Source of the DNA: Kangiella koreensis DSM 16069
GTDB lineage: Bacteria > Pseudomonadota > Gammaproteobacteria > Enterobacterales > Kangiellaceae
Reading direction: 5' to 3'
NCBI RefSeq assembly: GCF_000024085.1
Contig: NC_013166.1
Coordinates: forward strand, 2,356,001-2,420,000
DNA length: 64,000 nt
Part shown: one piece after another, positions 4,537-42,170 of the stretch
How the letters are laid out: each line of letters begins with the position of its first letter
Position numbering within the stretch: position 1 is the first letter of the stretch
The notes under the pieces: generated by a model
Databases searched by the model: none
The model's input: the letters and a program-made list of their open reading frames with translations, nothing else
Told to the model about the DNA's origin: nothing
Position numbers and translations under genes: made by a program

Positions 4537-4771
4537 GTTTTCGCTACTCAGCGAGTTACTTTTCTTGCGTGGTCAAGAAAAGTAACCAAAAGAAGACCAC
4601 CCGTATATTGAGGCCACGCTTCGCGTGACTCCCTTCGCCACCCCCAAAATACTTAACGCACCAGAATTTACATCACATCCCTGTGCTGAAAATTCTTATC
4701 AAAATCATCCAAGATTTTGATTGCTATATTTTGTACATGGCTTAGCTCAATATAAAAGGGATTATTGGTGC
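4537..4771 (+). repeat. 235-bp dispersed repeat, copy A
   Basis: This segment shares its whole plan with 41937-42170. The first 65 bp are nearly identical and contain a perfect 13-bp stem (GTTACTTTTCTTG / CAAGAAAAGTAAC, loop CGTGGT). The rest is more diverged but keeps the same order: a variable CGCTTCGCG patch, ACGCAC, a weak AAATC/GATTT hairpin, CTCAATxxAAAGGG, and ATTGGTGC at the end. It fills most of the 441-bp gap between yqeY and dnaG. Short open frames within it are not genes. Similar TTACTTTTCTT palindromes are, to my knowledge, widespread in gammaproteobacterial intergenic DNA. Confidence 0.8.
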
Positions 4772-8791: not shown

Positions 8792-8868
8792 GGGCCTTTA
8801 GCTCAGTTGGTTAGAGCACCCGACTCATAATCGGTAGGTCCCCAGTTCAAGTCTGGGAAGGCCCACCA
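8792..8868 (+). tRNA. tRNA-Ile2 (anticodon CAU, lysidine-modified)
   Basis: This is a complete 77-base tRNA with encoded CCA. The acceptor stem GGGCCTT pairs with AAGGCCC, the D-arm is GCTC..GAGC, the anticodon CAT is at 8826-8828 in loop CTCATAA, and the T-arm is CCCAG/CTGGG with loop TTCAAGT. A CAU anticodon could mean Met, but C4-G69, C5-G68 and U12-A23 are the determinants known for TilS. The acceptor stem also resembles ileX-type tRNAs rather than elongator Met. It should therefore read AUA as Ile after lysidine modification. A tRNA-Ile2 behind rpoD also occurs in Pseudomonas. It borders the accessory patch that follows. Confidence 0.9.
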
Positions 8869-9137
8869 TTTTTCCTCAAAATTCTTTACCCCCTCTCACA
8901 CATTTACTCAATACCAGAATCAGTAAAACTTGTTTTCGTACCCGCTAAACCCTTTTACTTAAACAATATAGACGCCCCTTCTAGGTTTGTTAGCAGAACT
9001 TATTTGAGCACAGATAATTTCGAACAAGCCGTAAAAAGTCAAACCAGACATTTCTTGTCCTATTTGTTGGTTTTAGCTACACACTAAAAAAGCATTGCAA
9101 TTACAAAAGAGCTAATTACTATAAGGTCTGTAGGTCG

Positions 9138-9168
9138 TTGACCATGGTGTCTGTAAACTTAATATAAT
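9138..9168 (+). promoter_or_regulatory. Candidate promoter ahead of the cassette-like genes
   Basis: TTGACC (9138-9143) and a consensus TATAAT (9163-9168) are separated by 19 bp, slightly longer than ideal. It points into the cassette pair and could supply transcription that gene cassettes usually lack. Confidence 0.4.
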
Positions 9169-9186
9169 AAGAGATACCAGAACAGG

Positions 9187-9228
9187 AATGTCCGGTTTTA
9201 TATGGTATTAGCCGTAAAAACGGACATT
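9187..9228. repeat. Inverted repeat built on ATGTCCGG
   Basis: Arms AATGTCCGGTTTTA (9187-9200) and TAAAAACGGACATT (9215-9228) pair with one mismatch around a 14-base loop. The same core, ATGTCCGG followed by an AT-rich tail, recurs at 9265, over the proposed start codon of the next gene. It could be an operator or an RNA hairpin. No T-tract follows on the plus strand, so it is not a simple terminator. Confidence 0.6.
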
Positions 9229-9264
9229 AAAAATAAATTACTTTAAATCAATAGGTTATCGGAG

Positions 9265-9510
9265 ATGTCCGGTAATATAATGTTAAGTGTAAAAAACATG
9301 AGAGCAACGATTTGTGCATTGATAGATAATCCAGGCGAGGTGGAGCTGGCGGAATCCTGGATAGAAGAAAATCGAGATAAGCTAATGTTCATCTCTGACC
9401 AAAACGCATGTGGTTGTTGTGTTATGGGGTGGGATGTTGAAGGGCCGGACGAGGTTGTATCTACATTGCCACAACACATATCAGCGAGCAGCGAATGGGC
9501 GGACGGTTAA
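9265..9510 (+). CDS. Cassette-borne hypothetical protein (81 aa)
   Basis: I do not recognise the family. The small acidic protein has an N-terminal hydrophobic strand (ATICALIDNP), a helix (AESWIEENRDK), and a distinctive CGCCVMGWDVEGPDEV segment with three Cys in four residues. It ends in TLPQHISASSEWADG. It lacks a signal peptide and looks cytosolic. The start is uncertain: GGAG abuts the ATG at 9265, so ATGs at 9280 or 9298 are possible. Its stop lies 5 bp before an attC-like site, the normal geometry of an integron gene cassette, so it was probably acquired. Confidence 0.55.
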   Translation: MSGNIMLSVKNMRATICALIDNPGEVELAESWIEENRDKLMFISDQNACGCCVMGWDVEGPDEVVSTLPQHISASSEWADG

Positions 9511-9514
9511 TCAC

Positions 9515-9607
9515 ACTTAACAAGTTGCTGTTGTCGCCACTTCGTGGCTGGGACAGCCTACACGCCGCTACGCTCTGTTCCGGCTGCCCCAAAGCAAAGC
9601 GTTAGTC
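9515..9607 (+). mobile_element. attC-like integron recombination site 1
   Basis: The segment starts ACTTAAC (fits RYYYAAC) and ends GTTAGTC (close to GTTRRRY). Its two ends are partly complementary: TTAACAAGTTGCTG at the left pairs with AAGCAAAGCGTTAG at the right, with several mismatches. Inside, GGGACAGCC matches GGCTGCCCC. Length (93 bp), placement right after a gene stop, and imperfect symmetry all fit attC. A covariance-model search would settle it. Confidence 0.65.
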
Positions 9608-9622
9608 GCCAAGGAGAGAAAA

Positions 9623-10387
9623 GTGAATAATTTGGATTTTCATAAACAAACATTTAACAATGTCGGTTGGTTTATACCTCCATATGTCCAGCTAGAATTT
9701 CTTGGCAATATCGCCAAACAAATTAATGACAACAACGTATGTGAAAGCACGCTTGCCCCGTACCTTGCGCAAATTTATTCACCTGAAAATTTGTCAGCTA
9801 TGGTTTCTGAACGTTACCACGCTGTTCCATATATCAATGAGTATCATGAAATTATTGCCGAGTCCGTAGAGGCTCATTTTCTCGGCCTTAATCACATTGC
9901 CGTTTCAGGTCTAATGCCTGTGATTGAGGGAGCTGGAAGAAAATTAGCAGATAGTCGTTCGGTTGCAGTTACAAGTATAAAGAGTGTTTTTCAAAACTTA
10001 GCTATTGACTGTAAGGACGATGTAACAACTAATAATATCGGAGCTGTGGGTGAAATTGTTTCAATAATGGATGCCTTCATCGAGTTCACAGACAATCATC
10101 TTTATATCAACTCAAACAATTATTCACTGAGTGATAATACCAACAGGCACGGGATTCTGCATGGTGCATTCGCAGATGCTGATTATGGTGAGCCCTTGAA
10201 TTTTTATAAATCAATTGGTGCAATTGATTTTCTTTGCTTTGTTTCTGCATTAAGTGCTCCGATTTCTTGTTTTGCACCATCGCCAACCAGCGAGTCCCAA
10301 GCATTGGCAGCTTACTACCGGTTGTGCATTCAGTTAGGGCAAAAGAAACCAGCAGCGGCTAACAAGTCAAGCCAGCAGAGGCGTTAA
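9623..10387 (+). CDS. Cassette-borne HEPN-like protein (254 aa)
   Basis: The predicted protein is cytosolic and mostly helical. Near the C-terminus NRHGILHG gives an Arg175-x4-His180 motif, followed by DYGEPLNFYKSIGAIDFL. This layout (RHxxxHG, then a Tyr/Gly/Asn helix and a hydrophobic LDFL-type helix) is typical of HEPN-fold proteins. The R-x4-6-H motif there forms the RNase site in toxins and phage-defence proteins. The start is GTG, with AAGGAGAG at 9611-9618. The stop codon falls inside the right end of a second attC-like site, so the last residues (about KSSQQRR) come from recombination-site sequence. The HEPN call is from motif reading only; substrate and role are unknown. Confidence 0.6.
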   Translation: MNNLDFHKQTFNNVGWFIPPYVQLEFLGNIAKQINDNNVCESTLAPYLAQIYSPENLSAMVSERYHAVPYINEYHEIIAESVEAHFLGLNHIAVSGLMPVIEGAGRKLADSRSVAVTSIKSVFQNLAIDCKDDVTTNNIGAVGEIVSIMDAFIEFTDNHLYINSNNYSLSDNTNRHGILHGAFADADYGEPLNFYKSIGAIDFLCFVSALSAPISCFAPSPTSESQALAAYYRLCIQLGQKKPAAANKSSQQRR

Positions 10388-10389
10388 AG
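10357..10389 (+). mobile_element. Possible short or truncated attC-like site 2
   Basis: The segment begins GGCTAACAAGT, shares TAACAAGT with site 1, and ends GGCGTTAAAG. AAGCC and GGC can pair inside it. At 33 bp it is shorter than a normal attC, so it is probably an internally deleted copy. The stop codon of the HEPN-like gene overlaps its right end. Confidence 0.4.
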
Positions 10390-10462: not shown

Positions 10463-10693
10463 CTAAGATTCGTCCCTAACCCATTCCCCCTCTTCCTTGT
10501 GATATTCATTTTTTACCGCGGACCAGGCGACTTTGTGGGCAACTTCTTCGCGACTGTCGTTTCCTCTTCGGTCCTCGGGATTCTTGTATTCATCCCAAGC
10601 AGAGTTAAAGGCTTTTCGGTAAATATCCTGGGCATGCTTGGGCAGGTTATTTCGGACGCTTTCAGGTAGTTCGTCATTTGATTGGTAAGGCAT
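10463..10693 (-). CDS. chaB: ChaB family protein
   Basis: The 76-residue protein shows the ChaB pattern throughout: MPYQSNDELPESVRNNLPKH, AQDIYRKAFNSAWDEY, then DSREEVAHKVAWSAVKNEY. E. coli ChaB is described as a regulator of the ChaA cation antiporter, but its mechanism is unclear, and no chaA is seen here. The start at 10693 is chosen because GGAG lies 6 bp ahead; an ATG four codons upstream overlaps that site. It is the last of a minus-strand run of three genes. Confidence 0.9.
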   Translation of the reverse strand: MPYQSNDELPESVRNNLPKHAQDIYRKAFNSAWDEYKNPEDRRGNDSREEVAHKVAWSAVKNEYHKEEGEWVRDES

Positions 10694-10733
10694 TTCAAAC
10701 TCCATTTATAATATTAGATTAACCTAACCATTA

Positions 10734-11004: not shown

Positions 11005-12582
11005 TTACCCTTTCTCCAGTTTAGCTAGAGTTCTGCGGGCTTCTTTAATTCGTTCTTCTTTGGACATACTCTTTACAACTATCGGGTGGAATGCGTCACG
11101 ATTGGTGATAGCAAATGAAATCATTCCCACATCTTTGGCATCTAATGACACGGGAAATCCGACACTATATACGGTATCTGGGTTAGTAATGCCCATTAAT
11201 GACAACCATTGAGCGATTGATACTGGATGATCAGCGATCATTGGATCAATGATCATTTTATCAACGTTTCCACGGCTTCCTTTAACATAGACGATAGGTG
11301 CAACATGATAAGACCAGGGATTTTTATTTATTTTACTTTTGAGGTAACCGGAAGCCCACGCCTTATCAGCAATGATTCCCTCTTTTTCAAACATATCCAC
11401 CATTAGCTCCGCACGGGCAAAAGCACCATCTTGAGTTTGTGACCAGGCCATATTTTTCATTGCCTTAGCTTTTTTTAAAAGATTTTTAGCCTTGCTTTCA
11501 GATATAGCCTTAACGGATCCCGGTTCAAATCTGGACATATCTTCCAAGGCTTCGTGCGTGAAATAGGAATTCCTATTGAGACGAATGCCGGCCGGTAGGA
11601 ATGCCTTGTTTATGTACTGGCTGGTGATCTTCCCGTTTACTTTCTCAACCAGGTGAACATACGCTATTGCAGAGCGCTCTTCATTAGTCTGAGCACCAAG
11701 GGATATGATGTCATCTTTGAAACTTGATGGGCACTGTCCAATGATGTCCTTAAGATACTCGCTAAAGTCTGGATCCTGAAAAGTGAAGTAGGTAGTGACA
11801 TTATTCTGTAGATTTTCAGGAACCTTACGAGCAGCAGTAAGACGAGAGTGCTTATACTCTTCGTTATATCGTATAAAAGTTGCATACAAGCCCCAAACCT
11901 TCATGGCTTCTGGGTCATTTTTAGTGAATTTTGCCTCTCCCTTACTGTTTCGGGTGTAGCTTATAGGCAGAAAGAGCTTTTTATTGCGATCAAATAAAAG
12001 ATAATGGTTGTCACCACAGGACATAAAAGGACAGGTGCCGGGAGTAAGTTCTTCACACTCTTGATAACCATTTCCCTTCGAGAACAAATACATGGGTTCC
12101 CTTGGACCGGCAACCTCCCCTGTAAATTTTCGAGCATTATCAACAAGCAGCTCTTGTAATGCAGTCAGTTCATTGACTATCTCAGGCTGGTATTGCTTTG
12201 CCGAAACAATATTCTTGCTGAGACTATTATCCTGCTCCATGAGGCTCTTTATTATTGTTATGGGCGTTTCATATTCGGGAACCTTAACATCCTCGTCAAT
12301 TTTCTCACTGAGCACATTGAAATAATTTGTTGTGCCATCTTCTGATAAGGGCTTAACAGAAAATGGTTTTGGAGTATTGTTACCAAGGACAATGCCTATT
12401 AGTTTACTTCTTTCATCAATCTGAATGATCGCTGTATCTTCGTCTTTTTTACAGTAAACAATAGGAACCTCTTTGGGTGTACTGCAATTGTCGAACTGCA
12501 ATTCCTCAGAGTAAATGACGGAAGTCGCGTGTGCGTAGAATGGCAAAACCAAAAGAAGAGCTAGAAGGTATTTAGTTTTCAT
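11005..12582 (-). CDS. Secreted protein-glutaminase homologue lacking the catalytic Cys
   Basis: This 525-residue protein has a clear signal peptide (MKTKYLLALLL..YAHA). A long N-terminal region precedes a C-terminal domain like bacterial protein-glutaminases, which deamidate protein-bound Gln with a Cys-His-Asp triad. His426 (WSYHVAP) and Asp446 (IIDP) are conserved with the right spacing. The position of the nucleophile, in the family motif DxCYARAH, reads DGAFARAE, so Ala387 replaces Cys (GCT codon at 11422-11424). Unless another Cys substitutes, it should be inactive and may be a binding pseudoenzyme. The start at 12582 is preferred over 12642 because AGGAC precedes it and the signal peptide begins there. 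Confidence 0.7.
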   Translation of the reverse strand: MKTKYLLALLLVLPFYAHATSVIYSEELQFDNCSTPKEVPIVYCKKDEDTAIIQIDERSKLIGIVLGNNTPKPFSVKPLSEDGTTNYFNVLSEKIDEDVKVPEYETPITIIKSLMEQDNSLSKNIVSAKQYQPEIVNELTALQELLVDNARKFTGEVAGPREPMYLFSKGNGYQECEELTPGTCPFMSCGDNHYLLFDRNKKLFLPISYTRNSKGEAKFTKNDPEAMKVWGLYATFIRYNEEYKHSRLTAARKVPENLQNNVTTYFTFQDPDFSEYLKDIIGQCPSSFKDDIISLGAQTNEERSAIAYVHLVEKVNGKITSQYINKAFLPAGIRLNRNSYFTHEALEDMSRFEPGSVKAISESKAKNLLKKAKAMKNMAWSQTQDGAFARAELMVDMFEKEGIIADKAWASGYLKSKINKNPWSYHVAPIVYVKGSRGNVDKMIIDPMIADHPVSIAQWLSLMGITNPDTVYSVGFPVSLDAKDVGMISFAITNRDAFHPIVVKSMSKEERIKEARRTLAKLEKG

Positions 12583-12736
12583 ATTGTGTCCTGAATAATT
12601 ATCCATAAAGCCTGTCAGGCTATATTTCTTCGAATTATTCAAGTCATACTAATCAGTGAATGCCACTTTTGCAAATAACCGGGCTGGCATGCTCCCAAGC
12701 TCTTCTTTCTAGAAACCGCAAATTCGTAATTTACTT

Positions 12737-41936: not shown

Positions 41937-42170
41937 GTTTCGCTACTCAGCGAGTTACTTTTCTTGCGTGGTCAAGAAAAGTAACCAAAAGAAGACCACC
42001 CCGTGATTGAGGTTTCGCTTCGCTCAACTACCTTCGTATCCGTCAAGCCATTTTACGCACCGCAAAATACGTTCCATCCATGGCCCGAATTTTGCTATTC
42101 AAATCATCCACGATTTGAATTGCTATGTCTTGCCTTCAACTCAGCTCAATCAAAGGGGATATATTGGTGC
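41937..42170 (+). repeat. 235-bp dispersed repeat, copy B
   Basis: This is the second copy of the element at 4537-4771, same orientation. The first 65 bp are almost identical and hold the perfect 13-bp stem at 41954-41966 / 41973-41985. The remainder is diverged but keeps the small TCAAATC/GATTTGA hairpin and the ATTGGTGC end. It occupies most of the 431-bp gap between acnA and the MFS gene. Confidence 0.8.

Follow-up and report, generated by a model that had tools for sequence, protein, structure and literature searches.

A gene cassette station with its own attI site beside a tRNA gene of Kangiella koreensis, and homologous attI sites dispersed in the genus

Introduction

Integrons are usually described as one attI site beside one integrase gene (intI), with a single array of gene cassettes, of which mostly the first are expressed. 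Clusters of cassettes without a neighbouring integrase are known as CALIN; in the cited passages they are reported at recurrent loci in Xanthomonas (PMC12444791) and traced to three origins, i.e. off-target insertion, loss of intI, and rearrangement (PMC8618304). According to the cited passages on IntegronFinder, attI sites outside class 1 go undetected by the program, and two attC sites are required by default for a CALIN (PMC9024848). A literature search of open-licence papers returned no description of dispersed attI sites.

The locus presented here lies in a 64,000-bp stretch of the K. koreensis DSM 16069 chromosome, the whole of which was analysed and is called the window in the following. 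A preliminary description, made from the sequence letters, had taken the locus for a stranded cluster of attC-like cassettes. The cassettes and the absence of an integrase stood, and the reading was revised in that the cluster has its own attI site and is part of a genus-wide set of dispersed attI sites. With good confidence, we regard the patch as an integron docking site without an integrase of its own that was stranded by the deletion of intI, one of many stations into which a single chromosomal IntI most likely inserted cassettes in trans.

Layout of the tRNA-chaB patch

The patch lies between a tRNA gene and chaB, with the following features (window coordinates and strand).

8792..8868, plus strand: tRNA gene with anticodon CAT (Met according to ARAGORN, Ile2 possible), located after rpoD; left neighbour of the patch
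8966..9072, minus strand: decayed 5' stub of intI, covering approximately residues 1-36 of the reading frame, with one frameshift and two stops
9095..9122, plus strand: candidate promoter TTGCAA-16-TACTAT, read by eye, of a form common to the type A copies of the attI element
9169..9285, plus strand: attI element of 117 bp, ending in the core GTTA at 9282-9285
9283..9601, plus strand: gene cassette 1, delimited by the cut points in the attI core and in its own attC (cut presumed between G and TT)
9298..9510, plus strand: ORF1, 70 aa, for which no family was found in Pfam (run on an 81-aa form), NCBIfam or PADLOC
9515..9607, plus strand: attC of cassette 1, 93 bp, with R'' ACTTAAC at 9515-9521 and R' GTTAGTC at 9601-9607
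9623..10387, plus strand: ORF2, 254 aa, GTG start, for which no family was found in Pfam, NCBIfam or PADLOC
10357..10389, plus strand: truncated attC of cassette 2, 33 bp, with R'' GGCTAAC at 10357-10363 and R' GTTAAAG at 10383-10389, middle absent
10463..10705, minus strand: chaB, right neighbour of the patch, common to the genus genomes G006, G012 and G019

An accessory patch beside a tRNA gene had been proposed from the start and holds; the intI stub and attI, which the first delimitation lacked, are now placed at 8966-9285. The promoter-like sequence noted upstream of the cassettes is present as a candidate, and a consensus scan listed 9138-9165 and not the candidate read by eye at 9095-9122.

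In G012 (L132), a partial second tRNA 3' end (36 bases, 83%) follows directly after the tRNA gene, and the tRNA-chaB interval is filled by other genes, so that the interval accepts more than one kind of insert. Window 11005-12642, minus strand, encodes a protein of 545 aa in which a Gln_deamidase_2 domain was recognised (76.1 bits, cut-off 25); it adjoins chaB also in G006, G012 and G019. Two Rfam matches above the gathering score were obtained for TwoAYGGAY RNA, at window 4630-4748 and 42050-42125 of the minus strand (49.5 and 45.3 bits, threshold 43), one of the two being upstream of dnaG.

The attI element in front of the cassettes

Window 8964-9289 is repeated in the genus; in a DNA search of 41 genomes many copies ended at window 9285-9289, and the alignment of 23 attI copies was conserved up to TTA and variable beyond. 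The homologous element adjoins intact intI in the sister genomes G006 and G012 (TIGR02249 400.2 and 399 bits, respectively, cut-off 265), where it lies between intI and the cassette array, as the attI of a complete integron does, and ends at the core, and the DNA from window 8964 onward aligns to the G006 intI-attI region at 84%. On this homology, 9169-9285 is an integron attI site, at which recombination by IntI is predicted. Position 9265, where the preliminary description began, lies inside attI, and the start of ORF1 is thus more likely 9298.

When K. koreensis was compared with G006, 117/119 positions of attI and 94/96 of plain spacer were conserved, with rpoD at 91%. By this measure attI does not clearly surpass the spacer in conservation, and the comparison lends no support to selection on attI and speaks against its present function here.

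Dispersed attI sites in the genus

A sequence model made from the 23 copies, which match it by construction, identified at least 46 attI sites (E≤1e-6, the E-values being rough) in 15 of the 20 genus genomes, a lower bound since 150 candidates were scored per genome. The set includes fragmented or incomplete genomes (G002 55%, G003 86% complete). At least nine of the sites are in K. koreensis, at genome positions 73501, 75021, 562179, 1346737, 1474009, 1538724, 1941190, 2365169 (the window copy) and 2549893. Intact intI adjoins three of the at least 46 sites (G006, G012:C7 and G018:C22). Of 148 genomes sampled from the order and searched with stricter filters, six match at 1e-4, and all six belong to this genus, one of the 65 genera in the sample.

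The left ends of the copies are of two types, type A being like the intI-attI spacer and type B carrying TTGATTTTGCTACTATC. Among sites followed across genomes, S3 is empty in G009 (38 bp), without attI in G018, G006, G010 and G000, and has a degenerate or missing attI in G005 and G007; the exact left boundary of the station is not readable from the empty S3 because repeats beside the unit blur its edge. At S4 the element is lost in G019 and remodelled in G006, and a flank search of the copy at 1346853 gave no clear empty site. Short repeats (GTCATCCCGCGG... and another), present left of the L109 station, are met again in many positions of the genus genomes.

Loss of the integrase

That no integron integrase is present, as first stated for the cassettes, applies to the whole K. 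koreensis genome, which has no TIGR02249 match above cut-off and is not among the nine of the 20 genus genomes that have one. Its four matches are all far below cut-off and fall in two ORFs (302 and 304 aa), which we take to be XerC and XerD; below-cut-off matches were obtained also in 14/14 control genomes. In the window, the place of an intact intI beside attI is taken by the broken 5' stub only, for which tblastn with the intact G006 IntI gave two short alignments, neither of them strong by itself (E 0.24), and the patch is in this respect not a complete integron.

A second locus at 75 kb of the K. koreensis genome (74.7-74.9 kb) has flanks that match the intI locus of G006. Of intI, residues 5-29 and 310-328 are left there, and an internal deletion thus took out the rest of the gene. 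The common neighbour gene suggests that this is the presumed ancestral integron locus.

Stubs of intI accompany the window copy, its ortholog in G006, the 75-kb locus, G018:C5 and one G010 copy. Such stubs speak for each station being the remnant of a whole integron (intI, attI and cassettes), duplicated or acquired, which would have gained its cassettes in cis before losing its own intI. We consider this conceivable but doubtful, since neither the short type A copies nor the type B copies show intI upstream, and since the corresponding rpoD-chaB interval of G019 holds a type B attI in the opposite orientation, which thus arrived there separately.

It is very unlikely that the patch is an ordinary CALIN, with cassettes inserted off-target by IntI at attG-like sites and no attI. 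Integrase-less clusters are, in the passages cited, common at other loci (PMC9024848, PMC8618304, PMC12444791), but here the 117-bp element in front of the cassettes, homologous to the attI beside intact intI, contradicts such an origin.

The two cassettes of the patch

The docking site, the preferred reading, is followed by two unrelated ORFs, each with a site directly behind it, as had been recognised at first. Cassette 1 begins exactly at the attI core GTTA (9282-9285) and has the composition of a gene cassette, i.e. an ORF and then an attC in which the R'' and R' cores and the L arms are present. The R'' of its attC is the perfect reverse complement of the attI core junction (7/7). With a score based on end motifs and stem, 9515-9607 obtained 29.6, the second-best value on the plus strand of the window, where the best (30.9) was at an unrelated place (50-130), and four matches in 20 shuffled 64-kb strands scored above 29.6. 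The score alone is therefore no proof, and it is because of position and R'' match that the 93-bp sequence is accepted as the attC it had been described to resemble.

Independently of the score, blastn matched window about 9518-9615 to stretches annotated as catB in two Klebsiella plasmids (75% identity); ORF1 itself had no plasmid match. When folded by itself, the attC stretch had a z-score that was not significant, and no cassette site was among the Rfam matches above gathering thresholds.

The 33-bp site of cassette 2 (10357-10389), initially described as a second, shorter attC-like site, retains both core sites; it is not a complete attC, as the L arms are not visible and the stop of ORF2 lies inside. 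The leading core of cassette 2 matches the R'' of this site at 6/7 bases, which points to an attC that has lost its middle. A relative of ORF2 (58% identical) in a soil proteobacterial genome (L150) is preceded by the core GTTAGCTGC and followed by a full attC, the R'' of which is GCAGCTAAC, so that the complete attC is retained there and the cores only in K. koreensis. The relatives of ORF2 come from unrelated bacteria; besides this soil proteobacterium, they were found in a Bdellovibrionales genome, in Granulicella and on three Providencia plasmids. ORF2 contains a conserved NRHGILHG-like stretch, which may correspond to an RX4-6H motif as in HEPN ribonucleases.

Variation of cassettes between orthologous stations

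The same two genes as a fixed neighbourhood without variation, which the preliminary description had named as speaking against its reading, were not found. G006 has the same tRNA-attI-chaB frame, and homology to the window runs to +2 of the core; the frame then carries two other cassettes, i.e. a 124-aa ORF, attC, a 242-aa ORF and attC, each attC being full. In other orthologous pairs (G000/G012, G000/G003, G002/G014, G002/G001, and G006/G012 at intI), flank and attI match to the core or at most 22 bases past it, and different genes follow. The pairs S5, S7 and S8, where the DNA match stops before the core, are for this reason less informative.

One cassette of a G014 station is 91.5% identical over 1108 bp to a cassette of the G012 intI array, the match starting exactly at GTTA, which indicates that stations and intI arrays draw on one cassette pool. 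G001, G002 and G014, with different cassettes at their orthologous stations, have no intI above cut-off (G002 being 55% complete), so that an earlier integrase must be assumed in them.

Cassettes behind the attI copies

The flanks of 36 attI copies (>20 bits in the fetched stretches, three adjoining intact intI) were examined. A same-strand ORF starts at -32 to +71 of the core in 33 of these, the remaining three being two copies at contig ends and the G012 integron. For attC, a covariance model was set aside because MAFFT of 13 attC sites aligned the L arms badly, and our own score of end motifs and stem was used at a threshold of 28. Up to 3 kb downstream, 30 attC-like sites were located on the same strand, in 20/36 copies, and none on the opposite strand; four of the 30 were scoring seeds, to which the window did not belong, and one was counted twice (two neighbouring G019 copies). 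Upstream of the cores, where one neighbouring array lies, five and three sites were found on the same and opposite strand, respectively. In 16/36 copies, including three of the eight examined in K. koreensis, there was no attC match at threshold 28 within 3 kb downstream; part of the cassettes at these copies may have decayed.

In a circular cassette the starting core pairs with the R'' of its own attC, and the two are hence expected to be reverse complements. The junction core was the exact reverse complement of R'' (7/7) in 13 of 16 first cassettes within 1400 bp, a set that includes two from intact integrons, and matched at 6, 5 and 3 of 7 bases in the other three; four first matches beyond 1400 bp (7, 5, 5 and 4 of 7) were left out of the count. 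At the variable positions 60/64 matched, and 0/10,000 permutations were as good. Later cassettes had a 7/7 match in 7/10 cases. At the level of sequence, filling of the stations by attI x attC recombination is strongly supported.

It is scarcely credible that the element, being short, repeated and of two left-end types, is a mobile or promoter repeat unrelated to integrons with chance neighbours behind it, as it adjoins intact intI in two genomes, downstream attC matches are on the sense strand only, the junction-R'' complementarity contradicts chance, and a search for inverted repeats of the left end gave none (≥14/16 bases, within 5 kb downstream of 12 type B copies).

Proposed course of events

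For the docking site filled in trans, we propose that attI was copied to the tRNA site with the candidate promoter and the decayed 5' stub of intI, and that two gene cassettes were then inserted at the copied attI by attI x attC recombination. A single chromosomal IntI, such as is still present in sister genomes, would have filled the stations of the genus in trans. In K. koreensis, intI was destroyed by the internal deletion at the presumed ancestral locus (74.7-74.9 kb), and its stations would thereby be stranded. The promoter may have been active and the first cassette expressed from it.

A wider view, to which we give even chances, is that of a distributed integron, where one IntI serves many attI-promoter stations in trans, many cassettes would simultaneously hold the first position and be expressed, and stations would multiply by some process. 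A genus with many attI stations would then have solved the problem of cassette expression differently.

Comparison with known systems

Dispersed docking sites suggest that an integron need not be one place in a genome. The dispersal of attI would be a further origin of integrase-less cassette clusters at recurrent loci, beside the three given in the cited passages of PMC8618304. Single-cassette stations can be missed by a tool which, as the cited description has it, is without an attI model outside class 1 and requires two attC (PMC9024848). The match of junction to R'' needs no attI model and is applicable to other genomes.

With the sedentary chromosomal integron the station has in common an attI with core GTTA, cassettes with attC, and R'' matching the leading core; it differs in that here there are many attI per chromosome, most without adjoining intI, and in that the K. 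koreensis genome has no intI above cut-off. Like a CALIN it has cassettes without a neighbouring integrase, but it has an attI of its own, whereas the definition of a CALIN rests on attC only. With their few attC, many stations would fall below the default threshold of two for a CALIN, as given in the cited passage (PMC9024848); in the window there are one full and one truncated attC.

In class 1 and 2 integrons, the delta-attI gene cassettes, as the cited part of PMC12901181 presents them, likewise have attI away from its usual place, where it takes part in recombination, as the sequence supports for the stations. Such a cassette, inside an array, ends in an attI, usually a partial one, in place of attC (PMC12901181), whereas here a whole attI starts separate small arrays. 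The parts of the station are thus those of integrons, and their arrangement differs both from the single intI-attI platform and from CALIN.
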